This document shows positions 9,270 to 18,498 of a stretch of 64,000 bases of DNA, one piece after another. The stretch spans positions 1 through 64,000 of the forward strand of contig JAJDBT010000114.1 of assembly GCA_029261215.1 (NCBI GenBank), written 5' to 3'. Position 1 is the first letter of the stretch, and each line of letters opens with the position of its first letter. The position numbers and the translations under genes were made by a program. This stretch comes from Nitrospirota bacterium (GTDB lineage: Bacteria > Nitrospirota > Nitrospiria > SBBL01 > JAADHI01). Under the pieces are notes generated by a model. That model was not told where the DNA came from, searched no databases, and saw nothing but the letters and a program-made list of their open reading frames with translations.

Positions 9270-10664
9270 TTATAAAGACCGTGAAGATTCACCGCGTCCT
9301 TCTTCCTGTTTTTTCTTTTTTTCGAAAACCCGTTTCTTTGCCCAATCAATGCTTTCGATATGGCGGCGGGGTTTTTCTGAAAAATTCCCTTTAATCAGCG
9401 CGACATCCGCCAGGGCGTCCATTGAAAAACGAAGACCGTGACAATTGAGACAGACCTCCCGAATCATCTTTTCGTTGGGCCGCAGGTTCCAGCTCTGGTT
9501 ATGCTGAACTTGTACCTGATCCACACCCTCCTCCCTATGAACAAAGCGCGGCATATGACAGCTCGCGCAGGAAACACCGCTTCCGGCCTTTTCAGAATCT
9601 GCCGCCTCATTTCGAAACAAAACGAAATGTGGGGAGGTCTCATAGGCCCGACTGTGCTCGTCGTCGTGACAGACAAGGCAGGCGTCGACCGCCGCCTTTC
9701 GGGTATCGAAGGCATGTGCGCCATGACACGACACACAGCCCATCGCCTTTTCCCCGGCATCATCCTTCATTCTCGCTTTCGCGATGTTGGGCGTCATTGC
9801 TGGCAGATCGCTGGCCAAACGCATGCCATGCTTTCCCGATAAAAAGCCTTTTACCTGGGTGTCGTGACAGGTTTTGCAGGCATGTTCATTCGGCGTGTTT
9901 TCCCATGCCTCAAGCCCCGTCTCCTGATTTTTGACTGTATGGCAGTCACTGCAATTCACACCGTTTTTCGCGTGAGCCGTGCCCGACCATTCCGCCATTA
10001 AATGAACATCTGCCTTCATTTCGAAAGAGGCATCGGCCTCAGCTTCAGTAAGCGGAGTAAGCGGGCGATTTGAAACCGGACGCACCGGACTTGTTTTTTT
10101 TCGAATGGCAACTTTTTGAATGGGCAGCATATCCGGCTCATCCGAATGTTTTAAAAGAAAGTCTTCATACAAAGCCCGGTTATCGTGAAAATTGTGACAA
10201 CCACCCGAAGCGCAAGTCTCAAAAGGCAGATCTTTGTGGCTGGGCCGATCCTTCGCGATATCCGCATGGCACAAAAAACAAAAATCCTGAGGCAGGGTCA
10301 CACCCATGGGGCCTGACATGTGAGGGCGATGCTCCCGATGACAGGTCACACAAAAACGGGCATCCAGCTTGGCCACACGCTCCGCATTTCTCGGATCGGT
10401 AAACTTTGATTTTGGATGGGAATCCTCCACAAGTTTCATTTCCTCTCCATGACAACTGATACAAGCGTCCTGCAGGACACCCGCTCCGCCAAAGGCTTTT
10501 TTGTGGCAAAGCGTGCAGGCCATCTCGATTTGATGATGGCCGTGTGTGGTCTCGCCCACCAAATAAATCGACTGATCCTCCCCGGACAGTTTGAGCCCAA
10601 AATACACAGCCATCGCAATACTCATCACACCCCATATCCACACTGTTTTTTTCGTGCGCATCAT
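9270..10664 (-). CDS. Membrane-anchored 11-haem cytochrome c
   Basis: A 464-residue multihaem cytochrome with one N-terminal membrane helix (residues about 7-24) and no clear signal-peptidase site, so it is probably anchored in the inner membrane and faces the periplasm. I count ten CXXCH motifs (for example CTLCH, CISCH, CVTCH, CFLCH, CSDCH, CKTCH, CVSCH, CLVCH, CASCH, CLNCH). One more site, CASGGCH, has CX4CH spacing. It overlaps no catalytic family I know, so an electron-carrier role is most likely. The start is directly after the stop of the flavin/haem-b fusion gene, which strongly suggests that protein is its electron donor. The tail is rich in lysine and glutamate. Confidence 0.88.
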   Translation of the reverse strand: MMRTKKTVWIWGVMSIAMAVYFGLKLSGEDQSIYLVGETTHGHHQIEMACTLCHKKAFGGAGVLQDACISCHGEEMKLVEDSHPKSKFTDPRNAERVAKLDARFCVTCHREHRPHMSGPMGVTLPQDFCFLCHADIAKDRPSHKDLPFETCASGGCHNFHDNRALYEDFLLKHSDEPDMLPIQKVAIRKKTSPVRPVSNRPLTPLTEAEADASFEMKADVHLMAEWSGTAHAKNGVNCSDCHTVKNQETGLEAWENTPNEHACKTCHDTQVKGFLSGKHGMRLASDLPAMTPNIAKARMKDDAGEKAMGCVSCHGAHAFDTRKAAVDACLVCHDDEHSRAYETSPHFVLFRNEAADSEKAGSGVSCASCHMPRFVHREEGVDQVQVQHNQSWNLRPNEKMIREVCLNCHGLRFSMDALADVALIKGNFSEKPRRHIESIDWAKKRVFEKKKKQEEGRGESSRSL

Positions 10665-16448: not shown

Positions 16449-16492
16449 GTGTTCAGGTCGATCACATAAATACTAAAAATACGACCAAATCC

Positions 16493-16523
16493 AGTGAGAC
16501 AGAATGACTCATTCTGTCTCACT
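16493..16523 (+). terminator. Hairpin terminator, left boundary of cassette
   Basis: Fifteen-base perfect arms (16493-16507 and 16509-16523) around one base, followed by TTTTTATA on the plus strand. It would end the VF530-YaiI operon. Its 25-base core (16496-16520) matches the core of the hairpin at 18366-18404 at 21 of 25 positions. The two hairpins bracket the DprA/phosphoribosyltransferase cassette. Confidence 0.85.
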
Positions 16524-16655
16524 TTTTATAGGGTTGTTTTAACCAAGTAATTTCTTTCTTGCTTGTATTACTGCGAAGCTCTCGAACTAAATCGAGTCCA
16601 GCGTCATAAAAGGGGAGTTTCTAAACCAGATGATTTGGGGTAGCTTTTTGCTCAT
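16519..16655 (-). pseudogene. Small third gene of cassette, apparently frameshifted
   Basis: An ATG overlaps the dprA-like stop (ATGA) and reads 16 protein-like residues (MSKKLPQIIWFRNSPF). In this frame it then stops after six more codons. Adding one T in the run at the frame break joins it to a second open segment (YDAGLDLVRELRSNTSKK, ending WLKQPYKK) and gives a 45-residue protein. Its stop codon falls inside the right arm of the boundary hairpin. Whether this is an assembly error or real decay cannot be told from the sequence. Confidence 0.4.
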
Positions 16656-17404
16656 AGCAAATTTCCCTGCTGAGAAAGGTTTGTGAGTAGCTTATCCTCT
16701 TTCATACGTTCAAAAACTTTTGTTAGGTTGGCCCTATTGGTCGATCTGCTCTTAGCTAGTTTTTGAGCGCCCATATCTAATAAAATCTGATTTCCACGAG
16801 CATCAACAGACATGTCCTTATATTGAGCAACATACAATGGTAAGCCGGATTTTAGGGTTTCTTTACCAGCGTTTAACGTGCCGCCTTTTTCCCCAGCTTC
16901 AATCACAATCATAACCCGGCTAAGCGCGATAATTAGTTTATTGCGTGTCATGGCTCTAAATGCCTTCCATGGCTCGTCAGGCTCAAACTGGCTGACTACC
17001 AAGACACGATCCCAATCCCAGACAAGCTGGAGCGTTTTTTTGATTCTGAAATGATTTATTCCTTCAGGAAGCACCAAGATGGTTTTGCCACCTGCTTTAA
17101 GGCAATTAAAATGAGCTTCAAAATCAACGCCAGCAGCGTTCCCAGAGACTACAGAAACATTATTTTGAGCAGCTTGCTCCGCGCAGTCTTGTGCAGTCTC
17201 CAAGCCTTTTGTACTTGATTTACGTGATCCACAAAACCCAAGCCCAACCATATTAAGCAACTTTACATTGCCAACCATGTCTAAATGCTTAGGGGCTTTG
17301 TTGCCCATAATAACCCTTACGCGTTTTGGGTACTGTGCATCATCAAGTTCAACCCTGGTTGGCCTCTTATCAATATTTCTGTTATCAAAGTTCAAGTTAC
17401 TCAT
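16652..17404 (-). CDS. DprA/SMF-like Rossmann protein
   Basis: A 250-residue protein with the DprA (SMF) Rossmann-like fold. Visible motifs are GFCGSRKSS near residue 57, VVSGNAAGVDFEAHFNCLKAGG near 85-107, and MTRNKLIIALSRVMIVIEAGEKGGTLNAG near 153-180. They correspond to the GSR, SGxAxGxDxxAH and NR-xxIxxLSxxxxVxEA blocks of DprA. The canonical C-terminal winged-helix domain and the VPG motif are not obvious, so it is a shorter, divergent member. Classical DprA loads RecA on incoming DNA, but small divergent members also occur in conflict-type gene pairs. It starts three bases after the phosphoribosyltransferase stop. The region is visibly more AT-rich than its neighbours. Confidence 0.8.
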   Translation of the reverse strand: MSNLNFDNRNIDKRPTRVELDDAQYPKRVRVIMGNKAPKHLDMVGNVKLLNMVGLGFCGSRKSSTKGLETAQDCAEQAAQNNVSVVSGNAAGVDFEAHFNCLKAGGKTILVLPEGINHFRIKKTLQLVWDWDRVLVVSQFEPDEPWKAFRAMTRNKLIIALSRVMIVIEAGEKGGTLNAGKETLKSGLPLYVAQYKDMSVDARGNQILLDMGAQKLAKSRSTNRANLTKVFERMKEDKLLTNLSQQGNLL

Positions 17405-17407
17405 GCC

Positions 17408-17959
17408 CTACACATTGTCCGTATCACGCAATGTTTTTACAAAGCTAAGCCCGTAAACCTCATGGGCTCCGGCTTGCTGCAACTTCATTGCGATATATTG
17501 AATTGTTATTCCTGACTGATATTTATCATCAATCAGGATAACGGTTTTATCATTTACATTAAATGCAGGGCTGTTTTGGAATAAGACTTGAGCTCCTTCC
17601 CAGACATCCCACTTTTCATTAAATGTAGACGTTTTTACAGATGACTTCTGTCCATTAAAAACAAACCCACCTGTTACATCTTGTTTGCCAACTTTTCCGC
17701 TAACCAAGGAAGTGACGCTGTTGGGTAGATCAAAGTCCTTATCCGGCCTTGCTGGAACCGAGCAAATCAGGTCAGCATCCTTGTAATAAGGAAGATATTG
17801 GACTACTTTTGAAACTGTATCAGCCAGTTGATTAATAGCATTTTGATCTCTATTGTGTTTGCCGTTATGCTCAAGGGCTCCCATCCTAGTGTATTGGCCC
17901 GAGGTGTTATCAGTGAGGTTACTGTCGATAGCAACGGAGAGAGATAAGCAGTCACTCAA
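17408..17959 (-). CDS. Phosphoribosyltransferase-like protein, C-terminal part
   Basis: The PRPP-binding loop of type I phosphoribosyltransferases is visible as VILIDDKYQSGITIQYIA (residues about 139-156), followed by GAHEVYGLSFVKTLRD. An upstream PxxP-type segment, DLICSVPARPDKDFD, fits the ComF/PRTase core. The first possible start is a TTG at 17959 without a ribosome-binding site. The frame stays open upstream for 43 further codons to an A8 tract (18089-18096), where it meets a separate ORF that has a proper ATG. The real protein was therefore probably about 275 residues, broken by a one-base frameshift. It is paired with the DprA-like gene. Substrate unknown. Confidence 0.75.
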   Translation of the reverse strand: MSDCLSLSVAIDSNLTDNTSGQYTRMGALEHNGKHNRDQNAINQLADTVSKVVQYLPYYKDADLICSVPARPDKDFDLPNSVTSLVSGKVGKQDVTGGFVFNGQKSSVKTSTFNEKWDVWEGAQVLFQNSPAFNVNDKTVILIDDKYQSGITIQYIAMKLQQAGAHEVYGLSFVKTLRDTDNV

Positions 17960-18080
17960 ATAAATTAGACTGCCTTGATTTCTCTCCCATTGCTCAACGA
18001 TTTCAATCTCGTTCTGATTAACATACCGCCAATAAGTTTTATACTCCTGGCTCTCTCTGAGCTTTAATCCTGTCTGCGAC

Positions 18081-18233
18081 TCAAATACTTTTTTTTGCAG
18101 CTTCTATTGCTACAGAAACAGAAAATGTTGGCTTAGCTTTACTTTTTTGCACCCCAGAATTATCTGCAAAGCACTTTCGGCGCGGCTCTTGATTATGAGC
18201 AGCAAGAACAGTGTCTTTTGTAATTTCTTTCAT
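18081..18233 (-). pseudogene. N-terminal fragment of the phosphoribosyltransferase gene
   Basis: A 50-codon ORF starting at the ATG at 18231-18233 (MKEITKDTVLAAHNQEPRRK). It reads into a run of eight A residues and stops three codons later. With seven A residues it would continue as FSVSVAIEAAKK-VFESQTGLKL directly into the phosphoribosyltransferase frame. Either the base count is wrong, the gene is broken, or RNA-polymerase slippage on A8 restores the frame. Confidence 0.6.
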
Positions 18234-18365
18234 CTTAAAAACTGCCTTAAGTTAACCACCGCTATTACATCTTAATGTTTGTCATTTAAAAAGTTCCTTT
18301 TTCAGACACATAAAAACTTGAAAAGTAAATTTAAATAAATCAATATCTTAAGTGTCGTGAAAAGG

Positions 18366-18404
18366 GAACAAGAGACAGAATTGCTCACCCTGTCTCTTGT
18401 TCCA
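18366..18404 (-). terminator. Hairpin, right boundary of cassette
   Basis: Fourteen-base perfect arms (18366-18379 and 18391-18404) around an 11-base loop, followed on the minus strand by CTTTTC. It can terminate the DUF445 gene, whose stop lies about 95 bases upstream in that direction. The core 18373-18397 is 21 of 25 identical to the hairpin at 16496-16520. Confidence 0.65.
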
Positions 18405-18498
18405 GTACTTCCATCACAAATTCAGACTGATTTTTCTAATCATAAACTTATTTTTGAGACAAGACCTTAAGAAGTAAACGCTCAAAAACAGCCAGGGC

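Follow-up and report, generated by a model that had tools for sequence, protein, structure and literature searches.

A DprA-like protein and a phosphoribosyltransferase (PRTase), encoded between two housekeeping genes in the 64,000-nucleotide stretch of a Nitrospirota genome analysed here (the window), resemble the ShosTA defence module and are flanked by two related palindromic sites. Considered jointly, these features are best explained, with somewhat more confidence than doubt, by a ShosTA-like module carried as a site-bounded, exchangeable cassette. According to this explanation, a ShosTA-like toxin-antitoxin (TA) module would have entered an intergenic region between housekeeping genes as a cassette flanked by two directly oriented sites, and the site itself would be a site-specific recombination point where whole defence or TA modules join and exchange in the family of the source genome. 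Both recombination at the site and defence activity are matters that we infer from sequence. The less expected result was the presence of oriented palindromic sites around this module and other defence modules.

Inserted segment and gene content

The segment lies between a DUF188 (YaiI-type) gene on the + strand and a DUF445 gene on the - strand. In another genome of the same genus (G001) the stop codons of these two genes are 15 bp apart and the locus is empty, and the segment of about 2 kb is thus regarded as an insertion. The two flanking genes occur together only in the source genome and G001 among eight family genomes including the source, and the transferred look claimed by the preliminary description is borne out by this single informative relative. 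The GC content is 0.402 in 16450-18498 and 0.477 in the remaining window, and only 3 of 620 stretches of the same length, taken by sliding along the window, were equally AT-rich, in agreement with the AT-richer stretch noted earlier. The spacer has diverged, so that the exact insertion ends are not resolvable. No palindrome was found at the empty G001 locus, and recombination between two pre-existing sites therefore leaves the first entry unexplained. The features of the segment are listed below, where the intact PRTase used for comparison is that of L013, an alphaproteobacterial chromosome assembled from a metagenome.

16450-18498, ends approximate: inserted segment that separates the stop codons of DUF188 and DUF445, from the G001 comparison and GC content
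16495-16521, + orientation: left 27-bp palindromic site, centre GACTC; the hairpin spans 16493-16523, and a short run of T comes after it (+ strand)
16587-16655, - strand: third ORF of 22 codons, in ATGA overlap with the stop of the DprA-like gene
16652-17404, - strand: DprA-like (SMF/SLOG) protein of 250 aa, putative ShosA/PsyrA-like antitoxin
17408-17959, - strand: PRTase ORF of 183 aa with a TTG start, putative C-terminal part of a ShosT-like toxin
18081-18233, - strand: ORF of 50 aa, the detached N-terminal part of the PRTase; its alignment with residues 9-42 of the intact L013 PRTase has 17/34 identities
18089-18096, - strand: run of eight A (coding strand) at which the PRTase frame breaks; homology to L013 resumes at residue 52
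18371-18397, + orientation: right palindromic site, centre TGCTC, with two departures from the consensus; arms extend over 18365-18403

The head-to-tail packing of the PRTase, the DprA-like protein and the small third ORF was found as previously described, with a gap of 3 bases between the first two and the ATGA overlap after them. The third ORF is perhaps the remnant of a third gene; searched as one reading-frame stretch against the fetched loci outside the window, it gave a best E-value no better than 0.3. In addition, a stretch of 89 bp in front of the PRTase gene (18276-18364) is about 80% identical to one in front of a BrnT gene (L047, about 308-395), which is part of another site-bounded module.

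The DprA-like protein matched the Pfam family DNA_processg_A (8.7e-41) and the PADLOC profiles PsyrA (1.1e-52) and ShosA (1.4e-32). The PRTase ORF matched PsyrT (3.5e-9) and ShosT (5e-5), and the PsyrT match is confined to its C-terminal part, covering positions 538-685 of the 689 in the profile, that is, the last quarter. On Pfam Pribosyltran it scored 20.4 bits, under the curated cut-off of 26.3, and the Pfam scan revealed no helicase domain in it. The closest full relative found is that of L013, where the DprA-like protein is 66% identical over residues 1-250 and is preceded by an intact PRTase of 282 aa (ShosT, 1.8e-7). In L013 the DprA-like gene is followed, with the same ATGA overlap, by a gene for a UzuA-like protein with a weak GIY-YIG match; the genes for the PRTase, DprA-like and UzuA-like proteins overlap as a single operon (L013:4156-6694).

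The Pfam name alone would suit a housekeeping or competence role, with a DprA paralogue next to a salvage-type PRTase, but this reading is hardly credible and is the least probable of those considered. The source genome has its own DprA, a separate gene of 376 aa, from which the cassette gene is distinct, and the DprA-size matches in four same-genus relatives have 369-412 aa. The pair is neither universal nor syntenic in relatives: the 250-aa form is present in none of these four genomes, and relatives of the DprA-like protein (E<=1e-25) were found in six genomes besides the source among 395 of the phylum. The ORF directly upstream of the DprA-like gene has 270-295 aa in five of these six and 105 aa in the sixth, and all three that were scanned match PsyrT/ShosT. 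The search for the pair elsewhere proposed in the preliminary description found it kept in L013 and in the three phylum relatives scanned, and a partial relative (L014) shares its contig with a type I methyltransferase gene at a distance of about 0.8 kb. Relatives were also found in plasmid (171) and phage (29) records, all below 60% identity, while the search of viral contigs confirmed no close relative.

Passages of PMC9122126 report protection of E. coli against T7 and lambda by a DprA-PRTase pair, and passages of a review (PMC12593503) describe ShosT as disturbing purine metabolism, ShosA as binding DNA and counteracting it, and T7 Gp0.7 as the trigger. By its profile matches, the cassette of the window appears to be a ShosTA-like module, a variant of the known DprA-PRTase type. 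By analogy, an intact version should act like ShosTA: on infection, the PRTase would act as a poison of nucleotide metabolism, an effect that the DNA-binding DprA-like protein would counter.

The window copy itself appears to be damaged. Upstream of the TTG the PRTase frame stays open for a considerable distance but offers no start codon, and this open stretch aligns with the intact L013 PRTase from residue 52 on with 45% identity, while the 50-aa ORF, which aligns with the residues before the break, is in a different frame; the two frames part at the run of eight A. The break may stem from decay, slippage, phase variation or assembly error. The alignments suggest that the PRTase toxin of this copy is probably lost or dead, and the module would then consist of an antitoxin with a damaged partner. 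The earlier proposal of a defence or conflict module is therefore retained in part: the cassette is acquired and, by homology to PsyrA/ShosA and PsyrT/ShosT, of the conflict or defence type, but the pair is already known as ShosTA-type and its PRTase gene looks broken.

A family of oriented sites and the modules between them

The cores of the two edge palindromes (16496-16520 and 18372-18396) have 21 of 25 bases in common (84%), as had been reported. The palindrome pattern has two matches in the window, and none of 100 window shuffles gave two. The hairpin core was found at nine places in the source genome (G000) and at none for the reversed control. When two mismatches were allowed, the counts for core and reversed control were 25 and 8 in G000, 25 and 15 in G003, 8 and 7 in G001, 7 and 3 in G002, and 6 and 5 in G004; as these control counts indicate, many of the loose matches are due to chance. 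A site was retained only if it fitted a longer consensus with three or fewer substitutions. In this way six family genomes contributed 55 sites (22, 12, 8, 5, 4, and 4), those of G143, G255, and G293 having been collected only around exact matches, and one poor match in G001 (three substitutions, L057) having been dropped. The exact longer pattern occurred in 5 of the 395 phylum genomes, all in the family of the source, and the reversed control in none; it was absent from the 389 sampled phylum genomes outside the family and gave no match in viral contigs. G003, a genome of the same genus outside the 395-genome sample, also has it. Exact sites per family genome numbered 5, 4, and 4 in G000, G003, and G255, as compared to 3, 3, 2, 0, and 0 in the others.

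The site has 27 bp, composed of two 11-bp arms and an asymmetric centre of 5 bp which gives it an orientation. The 25-mer is preceded by T in 50 and followed by A in 52 of the 55 sites (the right site of the window has A and T at these positions), the arms are perfect in 25, and the centre is mostly [T/G]AC[T/C][C/A]. Orientation was set by the middle base, and the C at this position is thus partly a product of the definition; the bases independent of this rule are also conserved, with A before the middle base in 49 and a pyrimidine after it in all 55. Of 21 pairs of neighbouring sites no more than 6 kb apart, 18 point the same way (p=7e-4 under the assumption of independence, although the sites within an array, and the site pairs, are not independent); this count leaves out one degenerate site lying 35 bp from another. 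In the source genome, 20 of the 22 sites are on nine short contigs (59.8 kb in all), for which misbinning is possible, and some of the sites in other family genomes are on contigs of 43-328 kb. Pup-proteasome-type genes, recognised by eye on one contig of the source genome, suggest a member of the Nitrospirota.

Defence or TA modules were identified in twelve of the 21 intervals that neighbouring sites delimit:

G000: type III restriction-modification (C28), BrnTA (C73), GmrSD/HEC-06 (C74), Gabija (C100; GajA 3.9e-282, GajB 6.5e-237), and the module of the window
G003: retron II-A with an OLD-type ATPase, the reverse transcriptase being split over two ORFs
G004: HigBA-type pair
G255: AbiA; PDC-M50A with ThsB; HEC-01/OLD-type pair
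G143: PD-Lambda-5_B
G293: IrrE-HTH protein with a PIN protein

The two reverse transcriptase ORFs of the retron (L067:7590-8579) make it a second apparently broken defence gene between sites. Among the nine remaining intervals, one has a lone ParD antitoxin, two measure 34 and 247 bp and leave no room for a gene, and the proteins of the other six gave no recognised defence match, both profile libraries having been applied to some of these six. Site-bounded intervals without a recognised module include L046:440-1466, L044:2011-3659, L048:3599-5348, L064:3027-4569, and L111:290-1097, encoding DUF6338, DUF3892, radical SAM and unknown proteins, and these intervals are candidates for new defence systems. 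As a rough control, ten genes of the window away from the sites gave two PADLOC hits, neither of them defence (by eye, a trypsin-type protease and a GspE-type ATPase); this set is small and serves as no formal test of enrichment.

The earlier description of a related hairpin pair at the edges of the cassette is accordingly too narrow: the pair exists, but its two members are part of a set of oriented sites that extends through the family and also borders many further defence modules. A module flanked by two copies and absent from G001 could also be an ordinary transposon or island insertion, with the palindromes as the ends of one transposon family. This is improbable, since adjacent modules share single sites in an array-like manner and are unrelated to each other, no common transposase is known in any of the 21 intervals, and the copies are direct, not inverted.

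Flank comparison and candidate recombinases

The 500 bp on each side of every site were compared with those of every other site, and pairs from the same locus less than 600 bp apart were dropped. Homology beginning within 15 bp of the site was found in 28 pairs, on the right only in 9 and on the left only in 19, and in none on both sides; these pairs are not independent, as a few flank types recur. For example, two source-genome contigs share the site and 193 bp to its right at 99.5%, while the left side differs at once. In one of the 28 pairs (C74-5348 and C8-2071) the opposite flank matches as well, at a distance of 40 and 14 bp from the site. That match is included among 27 further flank matches (9 right and 18 left) that begin away from the site in at least one of the two members. 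Such a one-sided pattern would be expected from exchange at the site and not from a passive repeat.

The palindromes might instead be a terminator-like or REP-like repeat, dispersed and enriched in variable islands with few genes, that has no role in moving the defence genes also residing there, a reading which we consider unlikely but the most serious of the alternatives. The left hairpin with its T run is terminator-like, even if four sites of this kind were found where 2.9 are expected from shuffles, and some sites of the family lie just past the stop codon of a gene. Against a mere repeat stand the centre of fixed asymmetry, the shared orientation of neighbours and the related flanks, which in all 28 pairs adjoin the site on a single side. 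Moreover, the source genome, which has the most collected sites, has no Y1 transposase; 6 of 8 family genomes have one, including the siteless G002, and a Y1/REP transposase is not supported as the agent.

The sites do not fit a Xer dif module either, given the length of 27 bp in place of 28, the 5-bp centre, the unlike arms and the shared orientation of most neighbours. A true integron integrase (IntI) scored over the cut-off in three of five genomes of the genus, and the palindromes could thus be attC sites of its chromosomal integron. We regard this as very improbable and rejected it as well. An attC site needs conserved outer boxes; in the 55 sites no sequence is conserved beyond one base on either side of the 27 bp. 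The sites and IntI are also not co-distributed, since IntI of G000 has an in-frame stop, G002, a sister species, has an intact IntI and no fitting site, and G003 has sites and no IntI over the cut-off. No site was found in the stretches fetched around IntI of G000, G001, and G002. The IntI genes of G000 (C39:31399-32337, L089) and G002 (C56:3467-4408, L090) are located beside heme-synthesis genes.

With these agents set aside, exchange at the site would call for a recombinase, and none could be tied to the sites, both tyrosine-recombinase candidates being patchily distributed. The first candidate is a tandem pair of 352 and 326 aa (L136:5103-7077; L137:5797-7771), with strong matches (80-100% identity) in three of the eight family genomes. 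These are G000, G003, and G255, the three with the most exact sites, and no site with up to three substitutions was found in the 13-14 kb around the pair in G000 and G003.

The second candidate is a tyrosine recombinase of about 200 aa (Pfam Phage_integrase). In G255 there are three places where its 3' end, a leader of about 94 bp and the site are found in combination; two of them include the full gene, and the third was judged by eye. Pieces of the leader are present at five sites without the gene. At E<=1e-20 the enzyme was detected in two of the five site-bearing family genomes among the 395 scanned, a sample that does not include G003. Its copy on C100 of G000 has no site within about 700 bp past the stop, and the copy on C54 has none in the surrounding 17 kb. 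A different palindrome, of 24-43 bp, was observed 160-171 bp upstream of this integrase in six of eight copies (L150-L153, about 9812-9862, and also L110 and L108), four of them plasmid-borne; it accompanies the enzyme more widely than the 27-bp site does. The plasmid hosts are three cyanobacteria and one gammaproteobacterium, four of the 1103 plasmid records with a relative of the integrase having been examined. The Spartinivicinus plasmid has a second copy of the upstream palindrome about 3 kb further on. These observations give hints that small recombinases with palindromic sites form a broader class, but they do not mark this enzyme as the agent in the family.

The most far-reaching reading is a cassette-exchange system, apparently undescribed and distinct from integrons and Xer modules, that would bound and shuffle whole antiphage systems, often with several genes each, on chromosomes within a single family, with the tandem tyrosine pair or the enzyme of about 200 aa as candidate recombinase. 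We give this broader proposal an even chance. No description of such a site system was found in the open-access literature searched, in which bioRxiv was thinly covered.

Comparison with known systems

Defence genes turn over fast and, to our knowledge, few vehicles are known that swap whole defence systems. If the proposal is true, a short site that bounds Gabija, retron, restriction and TA modules alike would be a dedicated device for shuffling immunity, and it would offer a handle for finding systems, any unknown module between two sites being a candidate. Exchange at such sites would also explain how a ShosTA-like pair comes to stand alone between two housekeeping genes.

Integron arrays likewise consist of modules separated by single oriented sites, as do the arrays of this family. 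The family sites differ from them in having neither outer boxes of the attC type nor a link to IntI, and in separating multi-gene modules of up to about 5 kb.

With regard to its genes, the module shares with ShosTA, as described in passages of PMC9122126 and PMC12593503, a putative stand-alone PRTase followed by a DprA-like protein, a mobile location and no helicase domain. It differs in that the DprA-like protein is shorter (250 aa, aligned from about position 85 of the 303 in the ShosA profile) and has its better score with PsyrA, the PRTase matches ShosT only weakly, and the toxin frame is broken. The resemblance to PsyrTA of Pseudomonas syringae, whose toxin is listed as RecQ in a passage of PMC8790059, lies in PsyrA being the best antitoxin profile and in the match of the PRTase to the C-terminal end of PsyrT, whereas the PRTase of the window is without the RecQ helicase part.

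With regard to its sites, the arrangement is similar to the Acinetobacter dif (pdif) modules, in which, according to passages of PMC13141974, the modules, frequently TA pairs, are divided by a short site in which an asymmetric spacer lies between 11-bp arms. In contrast to pdif as presented in those passages, the spacer of the family sites has 5 and not 6 bp, and their arms differ from the printed XerC and XerD arms. The family sites are, in addition, mostly in the same orientation instead of alternating, are chromosomal, and bound large multi-gene defence systems.
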